Positions 30,234-34,511 of a DNA stretch of 64,000 nt are shown in pieces (the stretch's first letter is position 1; each line of letters begins with the position of its first letter). Position numbers and translations under genes: made by a program. Origin of the DNA: Anaerolineales bacterium (GTDB taxonomy: Bacteria > Chloroflexota > Anaerolineae > Anaerolineales > Villigracilaceae). Location of the stretch: contig JAUXUL010000007.1 in the NCBI GenBank assembly GCA_030680795.1, positions 62,001 through 126,000 of the forward strand, in the 5' to 3' direction. The notes under the pieces were generated by a model that saw only the letters and a program-made list of their open reading frames with translations, was not told the DNA's origin and ran no database searches.

Positions 30234-30850
30234 GAATTTCCGGTCAATCACTATTCTCATCTTATGACAATGAGCCTATTATGGAACCAGTTCCGCATTA
30301 CTTTTTTTTCTTAGGAGTGCGCAACGCTTTCCTGTAATAAAGTTTTTAAATAACTTGGGTGCTGGCTTTGAGCCAGTATATCTCAAAACCAGCATCCTAT
30401 CCTTTTACTGAGCATGAAACATATGTCCGATTGTGTTTATCCCTGCCCGTGCAGGTTTTGACTATGGCAATTTAGAGATAACTAAGAAGTGGGAGAGAGG
30501 TCACTAATTAACTGCTGCAGCAGAAGGGTTATTGATCAGGCGTCCACCGAAAGGGGTTGAAATATCTTGGAGAACGGCTGGTGTCCGCCCTCTCACCGTC
30601 TTGGGAAATGCAGTGTGGTATTTTAGGAAACATCAGTAAAAATGGGGGGATAGCCAGGCATCATCATTTATTACTCAACCCTCATACCCCATTTTTTCAG
30701 AGTTTCCGTATATTCCTATGTCACTTTTATCGGGTAGTTTTTTCGGGCGAACGCCGAAAAATCGCCGAGGCCAATGGCCGCGGCGCGCTTGGATTCTCTA
30801 AAGGGTGGTGTGCCACCCAGCGCCGACCAGCGGGAGGCCCAAATTTTGTG
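30234..30850. other. intergenic region, no convincing gene
   Basis: About 600 bp between the corrinoid-protein gene and the accessory island. It holds an inverted pair GGTGCTGG/CCAGCATCC (approximately 30358-30398) and, from 30740, a GC-rich structured stretch with GGGTGG-TGTG-CCACCC and the word CCACCCAGCGCCG, which resembles part of the repeats at 32.1 and 33.3 kb. A 108-codon frame at 30557 has no protein-like character. Confidence 0.5.
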
Positions 30851-30856
30851 TGCAGC

Positions 30857-30892
30857 AAATCAGCCCTTCTCATCATTGGGTAGGGCTGATTT
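30857..30892 (+). terminator. Rho-independent terminator
   Basis: Stem AAATCAGCCCT / AGGGCTGATTT around a 14-base loop, followed by TTTTTCT. It would end rightward transcription just before the leftward ArdC-like gene, and also follows a CCCAGCG(C)CG word as the hairpins of the repeats at 32.4 and 33.5 kb do. Confidence 0.8.
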
Positions 30893-30907
30893 TTTCTGTC
30901 TTGTTTT

Positions 30908-31711
30908 CTATTGTTCGCAGGCGTCAATCAGCTGGCTGGCGCATTTGATGATCCTTTGCCCCGACTCTTTGATCTGCTCGGGGCTTGACCAGTGCGCGAG
31001 ATAATTCGGGGCGTTGGTCTCGATCTCAAAATGCTCACAAACGATAAAGGCGGTGGCTTCGGCTTCGGTCTCTTTTTGTTCACTGCCCATCCCGTAGCGG
31101 CCTTCATGTAAAAGCATGTGGGCGGCTTCGTGAATGAGTGCTGATGTGCCTGCGTTGGGACGTGATACGATCTCGCGGACTTTGTAATTTACATGGGCTT
31201 CTTCCCTCATTCCATCCTGTTCGCGGTAGCTGTATCCGTTTTCCTTTGCAAGTTCGATCAAGGCTGTGTGTATTTTTGCGTTTCGTTCTTCGGTGCGCCA
31301 TTGCAGTGACGCGGGCAGGGGCTCGCCTTCGGTTTGTTCGATGTCGAAAACGCTCACGACTCTAAAGCGGTTCGCGTTCCCGTATACCTTGCGCTCTTTT
31401 CCGGTCTCTTCGTCCGTCTCGGTATGGTGTGAGGCAAAGCCACAAGGCGCAAGGATCGCGATCCCATGTTCTCCCTTCCTGACCTGTCTTTTGAGCTCCT
31501 TCCAGCGGTTGTATCCTGCGACGCGGGAGGCTGTCGGTTTCTGGAAGAGGATCAACCAGATATTCGAGGCGCTGTATTTGTGGAATTTGGCCGCGGTCTT
31601 GAGGTAGGCGATAAACTGCGCGGATTTCTGGGCCGCGTCCGTCAGTTCTGCCAGTCCTTTCAGGCGTTCTTCAAAATCGGCTTTTACTTCCTGGGCTTTT
31701 TCGGTGTGCAT
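30908..31711 (-). CDS. ArdC-like antirestriction protein with metallopeptidase motif
   Basis: A 267-residue protein with an ArdC-type ssDNA-binding N-terminal domain (FIAYLKTAAKFHKYSASNIWLILFQKPTASRVAGYNRWKELKRQVRKGEHGIAILAP, about 33-90) and a C-terminal zinc-peptidase segment with HEAAH at 194-198 followed by a distant Glu-rich helix (ETEAEATAFIVCEHF), as in ImmA/IrrE relatives. ArdC proteins protect incoming plasmid DNA against restriction or act during conjugation. It marks the left part of the accessory island, 3 kb from a restriction-like operon. GGAGAAAACACC precedes the ATG. Confidence 0.85.
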   Translation of the reverse strand: MHTEKAQEVKADFEERLKGLAELTDAAQKSAQFIAYLKTAAKFHKYSASNIWLILFQKPTASRVAGYNRWKELKRQVRKGEHGIAILAPCGFASHHTETDEETGKERKVYGNANRFRVVSVFDIEQTEGEPLPASLQWRTEERNAKIHTALIELAKENGYSYREQDGMREEAHVNYKVREIVSRPNAGTSALIHEAAHMLLHEGRYGMGSEQKETEAEATAFIVCEHFEIETNAPNYLAHWSSPEQIKESGQRIIKCASQLIDACEQ

Positions 31712-32102
31712 GGTGTTTTCTCCTTTTGGGTTGTGTGGTGTCGGGGGCGATGAAATTCAAATTCCATCACCCACACTTTCCAAAAAGCACCAAAAAAGCA
31801 AAGGCGTACCCGCCGTAAAAATGCAAGGTTGGTGAGACGCCCAAAAACGAAAAATTGGTGGGCGAAGGCACCATCCAATTTTTATGTACTCCCTATGAAG
31901 ATTGCGCGGCGCGAGCCCGGAAACCTTGTATTTTTTAGCTTGGTGCTATGCCGACAGTCGCAACGTGCCGTAGGAATTGCAATAGTTTTTGAGCAAGGGC
32001 AAAGGCCGTGCGCGGAGGCGTTCCTACAAAACCCCCCGACGCCATGCACTTAAAGATCGGTGGAAAATCCCTGGGAACCACACAAGTGAGCAGGGAAGAA
32101 GC
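31712..32102. other. non-coding stretch upstream of ArdC-like gene
   Basis: Contains the presumed ArdC-like promoter and several short GC-rich palindromic words, but no supported ORF. Small open frames here lack family similarity and ribosome binding sites. Confidence 0.4.
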
Positions 32103-32436
32103 GTCAAACGAGGACTTAGCTTGGTGGACATGCCGGGCGGCTGTGCGCTGGCGAATGTCCGTTGAGCTTCCGCAAGAAAGGGAATTGCTGAACGTTTGGC
32201 TTGTCTCTTACCACCCAAGCCCTTGAATAAAAATCAAGGGACTGCCCGTCAGGGATGGCGTTCGTCCACCCTTTATTTTTTATGGGCGGGTGGTAATGCC
32301 AAACGTGATCAAGGAAATGAATTGCGGCTGCGCTCTGCTGTCCCGTGTTCGCATGCACACCCAGCGACGGCGAAAATAAAACAGCTATGCAATGGAATAG
32401 CTGTTTTTTGGCCGGAAGCCGAAGTTTGAACGCGGA
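32103..32436 (+). ncRNA. structured repeat, copy A (possible ncRNA or cassette site)
   Basis: About 330 bp closely matching copy B at 33256-33590. The first 100 bp are bounded by TCAAACG...CGTTTGG. Further predicted stems are CCCTTGA/TCAAGGG, CCACCC/GGGTGG and, near the end, AAAACAGCTAT-GCAATGGA-ATAGCTGTTTT (32378-32407). Compared with copy B the last stem is completely different in sequence while the 8-base loop is conserved. No convincing protein is encoded. It lies downstream of the HigA-like antitoxin gene's stop, on the plus strand. Confidence 0.55.
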
Positions 32437-32573
32437 TGACCGCGAACGCTTCTTGAGTGTGGAGTATCTCAATGGCAGGATGGTTTGGATCTTGTGACTA
32501 TTAATAAAAAAACAGCAACCGCCTCTACTATAAAGACAGTTGCTGCACGCTTTTGTTCTTAAGATTCTATTGC

Positions 32574-32861
32574 TTATGCTAATTTCGTAAATACTTCCGG
32601 CTTCTGCTCTGCAATACGCAACAATGCAACGGCGGGACCACTTGGTTTGCGTCTTCCTTGTTCCCAATCTTGAATTGTACGCAAACTAACGCCCATCAAT
32701 CCGGCAAAAGCCGATTGCGATAACTTTAATTTGGAACGAATAATTTGCGGAGGTGCGGGCTCTTTCAAGCTATGGACACGCAGAACTTTTGTGCCAACTT
32801 TGAAAGCCTTCACATCACGAATACCTTCGAGAATTTCCTGACCAATATCACGCTTAGACAT
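32574..32861 (-). CDS. HigA/NadS-type antitoxin (XRE family)
   Basis: A 95-residue antitoxin. The helix-turn-helix lies at about residues 40-75 (IIRSKLKLSQSAFAGLMGVSLRTIQDWEQGRRKPSGPAVALLRIAEQKP), with a conserved W in QDWEQGRR. The N-terminal part would contact the toxin. The ATG overlaps the stop of the upstream toxin gene by eight bases, the toxin-first order of higBA. It should repress its own operon. Confidence 0.9.
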   Translation of the reverse strand: MSKRDIGQEILEGIRDVKAFKVGTKVLRVHSLKEPAPPQIIRSKLKLSQSAFAGLMGVSLRTIQDWEQGRRKPSGPAVALLRIAEQKPEVFTKLA

Positions 32862-33165
32862 TTTTAATTTCCTTTGCTATCTGACGCAGAATATGAGCGG
32901 GAATACTTTCTGCTTCATTTTTACTGTAAATGGTTAAAAGCCAGATCTCATCATCCTGTTTCTTGAAGTAGTAGATTACCCGTACGCTGCCGCTTTTCCC
33001 TCTACCCGACATTGCCCAGCGAATTTTTCGAACGCCGCCGGAACCGCGAACGATTTTGCCTGATTCTGGATATTGGAGCAAAAAACTTTGCAAGCCTAAA
33101 AATTCATCTTCTGACAAATAATCGTAAAGATACTTTGTAAAGGCAGTGGCTTCGATGAACTCCAT
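32854..33165 (-). CDS. HigB/RelE-family toxin (predicted mRNA interferase)
   Basis: A 103-residue RelE/HigB-type toxin. The start MEFIEATAFTKYLYDYLSEDEF is typical. Core strands are GKIVRGSGGVRKIRWAMSGRGKSGSVRVIYYFKKQDDEIWLLTIYSKNE, with basic residues of the predicted active surface, and the C-terminal helix IPAHILRQIAKEIK. The open frame extends upstream to 33390, but that part is translated repeat B and is excluded. It forms one operon with the XRE antitoxin. Confidence 0.88.
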   Translation of the reverse strand: MEFIEATAFTKYLYDYLSEDEFLGLQSFLLQYPESGKIVRGSGGVRKIRWAMSGRGKSGSVRVIYYFKKQDDEIWLLTIYSKNEAESIPAHILRQIAKEIKNV

Positions 33166-33255
33166 AAACAGATTATACGGCAAAGCCGTACAATCTGCAA
33201 GACCTGATTTTACGCGAGTATGTAACAGTAGGAGGAGAGTGAGTAGTGAGTACGC

Positions 33256-33590
33256 GCCAAACGATGGCTTAGCGTGTGGGCATGCCGGGCGGCTGTGCGC
33301 TAGCGAATGTCCGTTGAGCTTCCGCAAGAAAGGGAATTGTGGCGCGTTTGGCTTGTCTCTAACCACCCAAGCCCTTGAATAAAAAATCAAGGGACCGCCC
33401 GTAGGGATGGCGTTCGTCCACCCTTTATTTTTTATGGGTGAGTGGTAATGCCAAACGTGATCAAGGAAATGAATTGCGGCTGCGCTCTGCTGTCCCGTGC
33501 TTGCATGACTACCCAGCGACGGCGAAAATAAAACAACCCATGCACTGGAATGGGTTGTTGTTTGGCCGTATGCCGAAGTTTGAGCGTGGA
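33256..33590 (+). ncRNA. structured repeat, copy B (possible ncRNA or cassette site)
   Basis: Second copy of the 32103 element, roughly 85-90% identical by eye. The first domain is bounded by GCCAAACG (33256-33263) and CGTTTGGC (about 33346-33353). Inside are TAGCG/CGCTA and TTCC/GGAA stems, then CCCTTGA/TCAAGGG. The end hairpin is AACAACCCAT-GCACTGGA-ATGGGTTGTT (33532-33559), whose arms differ from those of copy A but still pair, with the loop conserved in seven of eight bases. It lies between the toxin gene of one TA pair and the antitoxin gene of the next. Confidence 0.55.
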
Positions 33591-33652
33591 CGAACGTTTT
33601 TCATCTCATCTCCAAATGGTATAATCATTTTACCAACAGAAAGAAGGTTAAA

Positions 33653-33889
33653 ATGACTATGGTAGATTTCAAATTATCGTTACCTGATCAATTACGTAAA
33701 GAAGCAGAGGCGGCTGGACTATTAAGCCCAAGGGCAATCGAGCGACTTTTGCGCGAAGAAATTCGCCGCCGCCGCGTGGACAAATTTTTTGCCGCGGCTG
33801 ACCGACTCGCGGCCTTGGATTTGCCCATCCTGTCCGACGAAGAAATCGCGCAGGAAATTCACTTAGCCCGCAGACCAACTGCCGCATGA
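33653..33889 (+). CDS. antitoxin of PIN-domain TA pair
   Basis: A 78-residue antitoxin. FKLSLPDQLRKEAEAAGLLSPRAIERLLREEIRRRRVDKFFAAADRLAALDLPILSDEEIAQEIHLARR resembles short antitoxins of PIN toxins, with an N-terminal DNA-binding part and an acidic C-terminal tail for toxin binding. AGAAGG precedes the ATG; ATG at 33659 is possible. It overlaps the PIN gene by ATGA. Confidence 0.8.
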   Translation: MTMVDFKLSLPDQLRKEAEAAGLLSPRAIERLLREEIRRRRVDKFFAAADRLAALDLPILSDEEIAQEIHLARRPTAA

Positions 33890-34299
33890 ACATTGTCCTG
33901 GATACCAACACGGTAATCTCTGGTTTGTTTTGGAGAGGCGCGCCTCGTCAAGTTCTTGACCTGGCGCGTTCTGATACATTTAAGCTTTTTACGAGTCCCG
34001 ACTTGCTTGCAGAATTGGCGGATGTGCTCGGGCGGAAAAAATTCTCTGCAAGGCTGGAACAAGCCGATACAAGTGTTGATGAATTGGTTTTCGGTTACGC
34101 GGCGCTGGCAAAAACAGTGCGCCCAAACAAAATTGAGGCTGTAATTAAGGCTGACCCTGACGATGATAAAGTGCTGGCATGTGCCAAAGCCGCAAACGCG
34201 GAGATCATTGCCTCAGGCGACACCCACTTGCTCGACCTGAATGAATATGAGGGGATAAAAATCATAACAGTCAACCAACTTCTTGAACAATTCACATAA
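33886..34299 (+). CDS. PIN-domain toxin (VapC-like RNase)
   Basis: A 137-residue PIN-domain protein of the 'putative toxin component, PIN family' type. Acidic metal-site residues are Asp6 in VLDTNTVISGLFW, Glu in DLLAELADVLGRKKF, and the pair in KADPDDDKVLACAKAANAEIIASGDTHLLDL. It probably cleaves RNA unless bound by the upstream antitoxin. It is the last plus-strand gene before the leftward restriction-like operon. Confidence 0.9.
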   Translation: MNIVLDTNTVISGLFWRGAPRQVLDLARSDTFKLFTSPDLLAELADVLGRKKFSARLEQADTSVDELVFGYAALAKTVRPNKIEAVIKADPDDDKVLACAKAANAEIIASGDTHLLDLNEYEGIKIITVNQLLEQFT

Positions 34300-34311
34300 C
34301 TTCTTTCACAT

Positions 34312-34511
34312 TCATCCTTGCCCTTGACCATCCCACTCCGCCAGCATCAGCCTGGACGTCCGATACTCCCCATACAAGCGGACTTCCCTCTCCTTCAGCA
34401 CTCGGAAGGTTCCCCCAGGATAATTATCGCCGTGGACATTTTTCGAATCTAAATTGCAGTGCAGTTCGTCGCGGGTGAGATCGTAGAGATGAAGCAGAAG
34501 TTTATCCTCAT
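34312..34511 (-). pseudogene. short ORF or 3' remnant after DUF2779 gene
   Basis: The minus strand carries about 60 protein-like codons (KLLLHLYDLTRDELHCNLDS, then VHGDNYPGGTFRVLKEREVRLYGEYRTSRLMLAEWDGQ) ending in TGA at 34312-34314. No ATG, GTG or TTG lies between the preceding in-frame stop and the conserved-looking part. It begins immediately after the DUF2779 stop. It is either a gene fragment or starts from an unusual codon. I do not recognise the family. Confidence 0.35.

Follow-up and report, generated by a model that had tools for sequence, protein, structure and literature searches.

The 64-kb stretch of Anaerolineales DNA analyzed here (the window, numbered from its first letter) carries two long repeats that lie among toxin–antitoxin and anti-restriction genes, each ending in a hairpin whose arms differ between the copies. 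What are these repeats: a structured RNA, a DNA strand that folds when single, a boundary between mobile modules, or a relic of recombination? Our analysis establishes the copies, their fold and its covariation, a wider family and, for five close copies, a position upstream of operons. The repeats are instances of a real, covariation-supported structured element of one bacterial family; it is unregistered in Rfam, and we read it as associated with mobile islands.

Copies and distribution of the repeat

Copy W1 spans positions 32084–32448 of the plus strand, the stretch common to all copies, and copy W2, a short form of the structured element, spans 33237–33596 (plus strand). The two copies, which the first-pass annotation had described as near-identical, are about 90% identical (90% by blastn over positions 7–348 of a 351-base query) and reach 94–95% identity in ungapped blocks. 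A DNA search of the window's genome (G000; 3.45 Mb, 54 contigs) identified four copies, namely W1, W2 and two on contig C41 (C41a and C41b). A relative of the same genus (G023) has one copy, devoid of an inner hairpin of roughly 85 nt, plus a 31-bp end fragment. We refer to W1, W2, C41a, C41b and the G023 copy as the five close copies.

Read in plus orientation, all copies have the same right end (...GGACGAAYGTGAACG), apart from small differences and a shortening in W2. On the left, W2 and C41b start with AAGTGAGCAG or a similar sequence, and W1, C41a and G023 have about 80–100 bp more in common; the leftward similarity of W1 to C41a and G023 continues to about 32001. W1 and C41a belong to one block duplicated at 92% identity (window 30800–32553) with both ends in common, and the middle part of C41a is nearer to W2, the copies being mosaic.

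The distribution of the element is narrow. With W1 and its upstream part as the query, the DNA search of 152 family genomes gave matches in eight at E up to 0.01, and we accepted close copies in G000 and G023 only. The remaining matches were dropped by eye: the one in G034 lay within a transporter-like gene, those in G156, G146, G143 (contig C140), G142 and G009 were judged from their flanks to be due to chance, and a self-inverted match of W1 was discarded from its flanking sequence. An exact 20-mer found its sole match among 84,980 species genomes in the G023 contig, in a collection from which the window's own record is possibly absent. W1 had no match in 72,556 plasmid records or in phage records, the same held for the stretch around a more distant copy described below (G151) in phage and plasmid records, and an exact 19-mer returned 0 matches in viral contigs. 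No target-site duplication of the MITE type was seen by eye at the copies. A search for the empty site of the window island showed colinearity of G026 and G001 with the window as far as 30234/30235, and nothing matches rightward of this point in the stretches compared. A search of 60 relatives for an empty site corresponding to G023 did not find the flanks, the matches being to the HigBA unit or short.

A fold supported by covariation

W1 and W2 each fold better than all 100 of their shuffles (z −4.4 and −4.2, respectively). RNAalifold predicted 119 pairs for the five close copies, with standard pairs in 94.0% of the pair cells, and sliding one strand by 1–3 columns lowers pairing to 38–43%. 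Both sides have changed in 11 of the 119 pairs, distributed over six helices, compared with 5.8 in shuffles (1 of 500 as high), and none of 500 shuffles attained the covariation score; the number of further pair types was ordinary (85 of 500 shuffles as high). The double changes fall in the basal stem (four pairs, three in the outer portion, which is less certain), the rod (two), the inner hairpin (two, in two helices) and the final hairpin (three, in two helices), and covariation thus extends to stems other than the one to which the first-pass annotation had drawn attention. Columns 295/327 hold A-U in three copies and C-G in C41a and are unpaired in W2, which looks like a half-way step, albeit in a manner that depends on the alignment.

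Refolding with 80-nt flanks retained the inner basal stem in all four copies treated in this way (W1, W2, C41a and C41b), with 32105–32117 pairing with 32416–32428 in W1 and 33253–33268 with 33572–33588 in W2. The outermost basal pairs changed in W1, C41a and C41b and overran the limit in W2. We accordingly dropped a reading in which the fold ends at the repeat ends, since the folded alignments had been cut there and the flanks alter the outer stem; in these predictions, the choice of cutting points determines how the outer basal stem pairs.

A final hairpin with alternative stems and a nearly fixed octaloop

The final hairpin (P3) occupies 32369–32414 of the plus strand in W1 (GGCGAAAATAAAACAGCTAT-GCAATGGA-ATAGCTGTTTTTTGGCCG) and, as another stem allele, 33521–33568 of the plus strand in W2. 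In W1, the arms CAGCTAT (32382–32388) and ATAGCTG (32397–32403) enclose the loop GCAATGGA, and in W2 the arms CAACCCAT (33534–33541) and ATGGGTTG (33550–33557) enclose the loop GCACTGGA, confirming the earlier observation that the arms are swapped with pairing and an 8-base loop preserved. The window holds 16 GCANTGGA octamers on its two strands, and only those of W1 and W2 are closed by a stem of at least 5 pairs (G-T allowed); the two hairpins are therefore more than chance.

W1 and C41a carry different final hairpins despite their 92% block duplication, and for this reason two hairpin alleles have probably been exchanged between copies. Such exchange leaves few independent events within G000, and because the hairpin forms act as exchanged alleles, the two window copies on their own are weaker evidence than they look. 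The proposal of selection on a folded nucleic acid, which had been built on these two copies, is instead carried by the covariation in other stems and by the relatives described next.

Relatives in other genera

A covariance model of the 3′ domain of the five close copies only (R1) matched five of 400 order genomes at E up to 0.01. Besides G000 and G023, these are G151 (E 3e-12) and G143 (E 5e-5), which represent two other genera of the same family as the window, and G409, whose match we rejected as a lone terminator-like hairpin. Within the window, R1 found only the two copies at E up to 0.001. It thus returned no match at 30857–30892, where a weaker third relative had been suggested; by eye, this sequence is the intrinsic terminator of an ArdC-like gene (30857–30895, minus strand), with the stem AAATCAGCCCT/AGGGCTGATTT and a loop without GCANTGGA.

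A search of the 152 family genomes with model R3 gave matches in seven at E up to 0.05, and we accepted those in G000, G023, G143 and G151. The G146 match was rejected as it lies inside a DeoR-like gene, and the G118 match (22 bits) was also rejected. We left G159 (27 bits) undecided and uncounted; its hairpin is flanked by GACGGCGAA, the loop ends in TTGGA, and TTTGGCCG is absent. Nothing new was accepted from 396 class genomes and 400 phylum genomes, searched with strict filters that may lose weak matches. In viral contigs, R1 gave 0 matches at E up to 1 and R3 gave three weak ones (E 0.08–0.37); a relaxed hairpin pattern hit 48 loci, none with a closing stem of more than 3 pairs, and a second pattern hit three loci (best E 0.93).

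G151 and G143 keep the arrangement GRCGGCGAA–stem–GCNNTGGA–stem′–TTTGGCCG with new stem letters, the hairpin being preceded by GACGGCGAA or GGCGGCGAA and followed by TTTGGCCG, and their octaloops are similar (GCATTGGA; GCTATGGA). Over the seven copies, the octaloop conforms to GCANTGGA in five and reads GCAGTGTA in C41b and GCTATGGA in G143, and 9 of the 11 P3 pairs have changed on both sides; P3 is the most conserved part of the element. Taking the whole seven-sequence alignment, which was fitted to the model and is hence biased towards it, 19 of 46 pairs have changed on both sides (0 of 500 shuffles as high).

The G151 sequence alone folds into a basal stem, a short rod and P3. The rod therefore varies in length between copies, from about 60 nt in G151 to longer in G023 and longest in W1 and W2. 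The 661-nt non-coding G151 stretch with the element folds strongly (z −9.6 against 20 shuffles). The G143 copy is 5′-truncated, as judged by eye, and lies about 150 bp from a contig end. Model R2, which describes the rod, gave weak matches in G151 only, and the 5′ parts of W compared with G151 scored no better than shuffles (476 to 1119 of 2000 as high); as far as sequence comparison goes, the homology of W to G151 rests on the 3′ domain. These data support selection on a folded nucleic acid.

Rfam 15 at gathering score returned only a tRNA from the whole window and tRNAs only from six loci. No match at E up to 5 was found for window 31950–33650, and the G151 stretch gave a tRNA plus sub-threshold matches to other families. 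In the literature covered, mostly titles and abstracts, nothing names this motif.

Gene setting

W1 stands upstream of a minus-strand gene for an ArdC-like anti-restriction protein (30908–31711; PF08401, ArdcN, E 6.7e-13; phrog_7245, anti-restriction, E 1.1e-16), in which we read a HEAAH motif by eye. The first minus-strand gene downstream of W2 encodes a RelE/HigB-like toxin (32854–33165; PF06296, E 5.5e-6, with 27 bits for a cut-off of 27), and the adjoining minus-strand gene a HigA/MqsA-like HTH antitoxin (32574–32861; PF01381, E 9.3e-8). On the plus strand, a PIN-domain toxin with a small upstream partner that has no Pfam match occupies 33653–34299 (PF13470, E 5.9e-21). Both pairs are located where the first-pass annotation had placed them.

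All five close copies have a minus-strand operon downstream. W1 and C41a each precede an ArdC-like gene, W2 and the G023 copy precede a HigBA-like pair, and C41b precedes Panacea, MazF-like, methyltransferase and HNH (EndoVII) genes. The five settings are not independent, as W1 and C41a form one block and W2 and G023 share one HigBA unit. A position upstream of toxin–antitoxin pairs, as initially proposed, needs correcting: with ArdC-like genes behind two of the copies and a mixed operon behind C41b, a specific tie to such pairs is not supported. The PIN pair recurs in G036 between other repeats, with homology starting at window 33597, and the searches of G036 gave no copy of the element; judging from these sequences, the pair follows W2 without being linked to it.

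Further features surround these modules. A second repeat, about 80% identical, is present at window 30438–30586 and at L008:13752–13900, and sits to the left of the ArdC block in the window and to the left of C41b. Window 34311–34489 appears by eye to be the 3′ end of a restriction-methylase-type gene, and fragments of such gene ends surround toxin–antitoxin modules in relatives (G036, L086; G006, L088), as if module insertion had duplicated the gene end. C41a and C41b have a tRNA gene at distances of 1.5 kb and 5 kb, respectively, and a second one is located within the C41 island (L008:10993–11065) directly behind a remnant of the HigBA unit.

The G151 copy stands in a non-coding stretch behind an excisionase-like HTH gene, with a tRNA gene at 0.6 kb. 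Capsid-protease and terminase genes are found 22–28 kb beyond it, and an integrase was absent from the proteins scanned around this copy. On the opposite strand, the nearest gene that matches a family (SWIM) starts about 2.6 kb from the element, and G151 is therefore only compatible with the upstream rule. Around the G151 copy extend about 2 kb of non-coding-looking DNA with a 49-bp tandem and further internal repeats (L119:9660–11900). A pentapeptide-TIR gene follows the G143 copy at about 0.5 kb, and such genes occur near the element in both genomes (G143, L120:4439–5485, minus strand; G151, L119:16247–17347, plus strand).

Integron-integrase-like genes are present in G023, in G034 and, split into pieces, in G000; the best E is 2e-100, and all three fall below the curated family cut-off. 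The 14 control genomes also match, none above this cut-off. The pieces in G000 lie near the ends of contigs C24, C16 and C27 (L028, L029 and L030), the C16 end, C27 end and C24 start having one sequence in common, and the G023 gene is on contig C11 (L031). By eye, attC-like sites of about 120–130 bp are visible beside the C27 and G023 genes, with a sequence different from that of the element.

Strand, coding capacity and promoter signals

In each of the five close copies, the RNA fold of the plus strand is 16–35 kcal/mol better than that of the minus strand. As single-stranded DNA, the plus strand departs from window tiles by −2.9 to −6.9 sd, compared with −1.5 to −4.2 sd for the minus strand. 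The folding predictions favor the plus strand as the working strand, although the choice is not settled because W1 also folds strongly on the minus strand when set against its own shuffles (z −5.4, versus −4.4 for the plus strand). Among pairs that are mostly of Watson–Crick type, G-U cells exceed A-C cells by 15 to 7, a difference that is not significant and comes from a structure fitted on the plus strand.

Single-base indels shift the reading frames between copies, and in one open frame the most variable codon position is not the third (with the phase set by hand); there is thus no conserved reading frame. One minus frame is open in three of the five copies. We rejected a protein-coding reading on the basis of the shifting frames and the unsuitable codon-position pattern.

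In a linear scan, which is not a model of the fold, the −35/−10 pairs of the five copies were no better than dinucleotide shuffles on either strand (16 to 98 of 100 as good). Sigma-70-type boxes are readable nearby, at the PIN module (10/12), and a weak divergent plus-strand promoter-like site precedes W2 (33165–33194, 9/12). The HigBA-like pair has, by eye, a TATAAT with TTGCAG 17 nt before it, between the element and the gene; this site is absent from the promoter-scan list as its first hexamer is too weak. P3 looks like a bidirectional terminator, and the inner basal stem uses bases past its U-run. A transcript ending at P3 would consequently lack this stem, and single-stranded DNA or a read-through RNA fits better.

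A model for the element and its alternatives

We tentatively favor, with somewhat less than even confidence, a structured element that acts as plus-strand RNA and serves mobile islands, of which W1 and W2 are copies; RNA is more likely than single-stranded DNA. The predicted fold of the plus strand has a basal stem, a rod that differs in length between copies, and P3 with its nearly fixed octaloop, this hairpin being set between GRCGGCGAA and TTTGGCCG. The working RNA would be made divergently from the island gene, and the P3 octaloop and its flanks may be contacted by a partner, protein or RNA, of the mobile element. We infer that the element could serve the island through regulation or through protection against host defence, and that homologous exchange between copies would allow modules to be swapped.

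The best-surviving alternative, which we consider possible but unlikely, is that the element works as folded single-stranded DNA. It would then be an Frpo- or ssi-like promoter or a single-strand origin, within the leading region of an element that is conjugative or mobilized, the plus strand being both transferred and used as template. The position of the five close copies upstream of a minus-strand operon agrees with this idea, as the better-folding plus strand is the template, and so does a rod and hairpin closed by the inner basal stem. Plasmid leading regions, in the parts of the published accounts drawn upon here, likewise carry similar genes together with several Frpo copies (PMC11541004, PMC9849209). 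An Frpo-type mechanism nevertheless leaves unexplained that the most conserved part is the P3 hairpin, and it is at odds with −35/−10 pairs that do not exceed shuffles on either strand of any copy, with the phage-type genes 22–28 kb from the G151 copy and with the absence of a relaxase among the Pfam-scanned proteins.

It is improbable, in our view, that the repeats are passive or transposable boundaries, that is attC-like sites or MITE-like repeats that mark module ends and recombine. The first-pass annotation had compared them to cassette boundaries, a comparison that is apt in a weak sense, since modules and repeats alternate and segments have been exchanged between copies. The repeats also have sharp ends, the G023 HigBA unit is flanked by a full copy upstream and the 31-bp element end downstream, and integron-integrase-like genes are present in G000, G023 and G034. 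This order of site and gene is, however, the reverse of that in a cassette. Close copies occur in only 2 of the 152 family genomes (G000 and G023), conservation continues past the R-box-like pairs, the boxes are CAAAC/GTTTG, the local attC-like sites differ, and a boundary would not account for an octaloop kept while its stem changes.

We hold it for very improbable that the downstream operons carry the element as a minus-strand leader RNA, such as an attenuator or a processive antitermination element. P3 is terminator-like on the minus strand in W2, the W1 minus strand folds better than shuffles, and the place upstream of operons is constant in the five close copies. The distance from the element limit to the first gene varies, however, from 71 to 410 nt (about 372, 71, 376, 410 and 145 nt for W1, W2, C41a, C41b and G023, respectively), the TATAAT and TTGCAG read by eye for HigBA lie between element and gene, and it is the plus strand that folds better in five of five copies.

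Finally, the covariation could have arisen incidentally, through shared ancestry and recombination of two palindromic alleles with each other, with no present function. This would suit the mosaic copies, few independent lineages and narrow distribution but is barely credible, given that G151 and G143 keep P3 with unrelated stems and a similar loop and flanks, and that columns 295/327 are C-G in C41a, unpaired in W2 and A-U in the others.

Beyond the preferred plus-strand RNA element, a broader and rather doubtful proposal is that the repeats define a new class of single-strand-folding control elements, which would be characterized by a recognition hairpin with a GCANTGGA-type octaloop, lie before anti-restriction, toxin–antitoxin and restriction–modification operons of Chloroflexi islands, and activate these operons upon arrival in a new host, either as RNA or in the form of incoming single-stranded DNA, independently of the Frpo type. 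The result as it stands is a covariation-backed motif with a searchable model and an obvious candidate for a recognition loop; the mobile elements of these bacteria have, to our knowledge, received little study. If the element is active at the entry step, independent origins of single-strand control of anti-defence genes become testable; if it is an RNA, it adds one more family tied to anti-restriction islands.

Comparison with known systems

Frpo repeats are about 300 nt long. In the leading regions of plasmids, Frpo and ssi elements function as promoters in single-stranded DNA (Masai and Arai 1997, as related in PMC9849209 and PMC11541004), and several Frpo copies accompany genes for anti-restriction, HigBA and methyltransferases there, according to the portions of the two accounts used here (PMC11541004, PMC9849209); the portion of PMC11541004 on leading regions does not name ArdC. 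Compared with this partial description, our element is alike in being non-coding, in folding on one strand, in occurring several times per mobile element and in standing upstream of anti-restriction, toxin–antitoxin or methyltransferase genes. The template strand folds upstream of genes of leading-region type in five of five copies, which are not independent. The element differs in its conserved octaloop hairpin, in the absence of adjoining transfer genes among those seen and in the phage-type genes near G151. As −35 and −10 boxes in the linear scan are no better than shuffles, we rejected membership of the Frpo type and kept it as a rival mechanism.

In attC sites, the R″/R′ boxes are RYYYAAC/GTTRRRY. 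Our element resembles such sites as an imperfect palindrome between gene modules, in a genus with integron-integrase-like genes, and as a folded, covarying single strand. Its boxes CAAAC/GTTTG are, however, not of the GTTRRRY type, conservation extends about 20 bp or more outside them on both sides, and it is over twice as long as the local attC-like sites. In the one case available, G023, the full site lies upstream of HigBA and the 31 bp downstream, the reverse of a cassette. An integron cassette reading, at first favored because of the integrase-like genes and the G023 end repeat, was rejected on boundaries, boxes and site/gene order.

The CUP repeats of IncN plasmids are repeated upstream elements of anti-restriction genes, to which our element can be likened in general terms; W1 is unmatched in the plasmid records searched. 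GOLLD and ROOL RNAs are tied to phages and mobile elements. Both are large, non-coding and strongly folded in the part of the published description considered here (PMC12286853), and the element, which has no Rfam match, is like them in general character only. It shares with structured RNA motifs at large the compensatory changes across diverged homologues by which such motifs are recognized.
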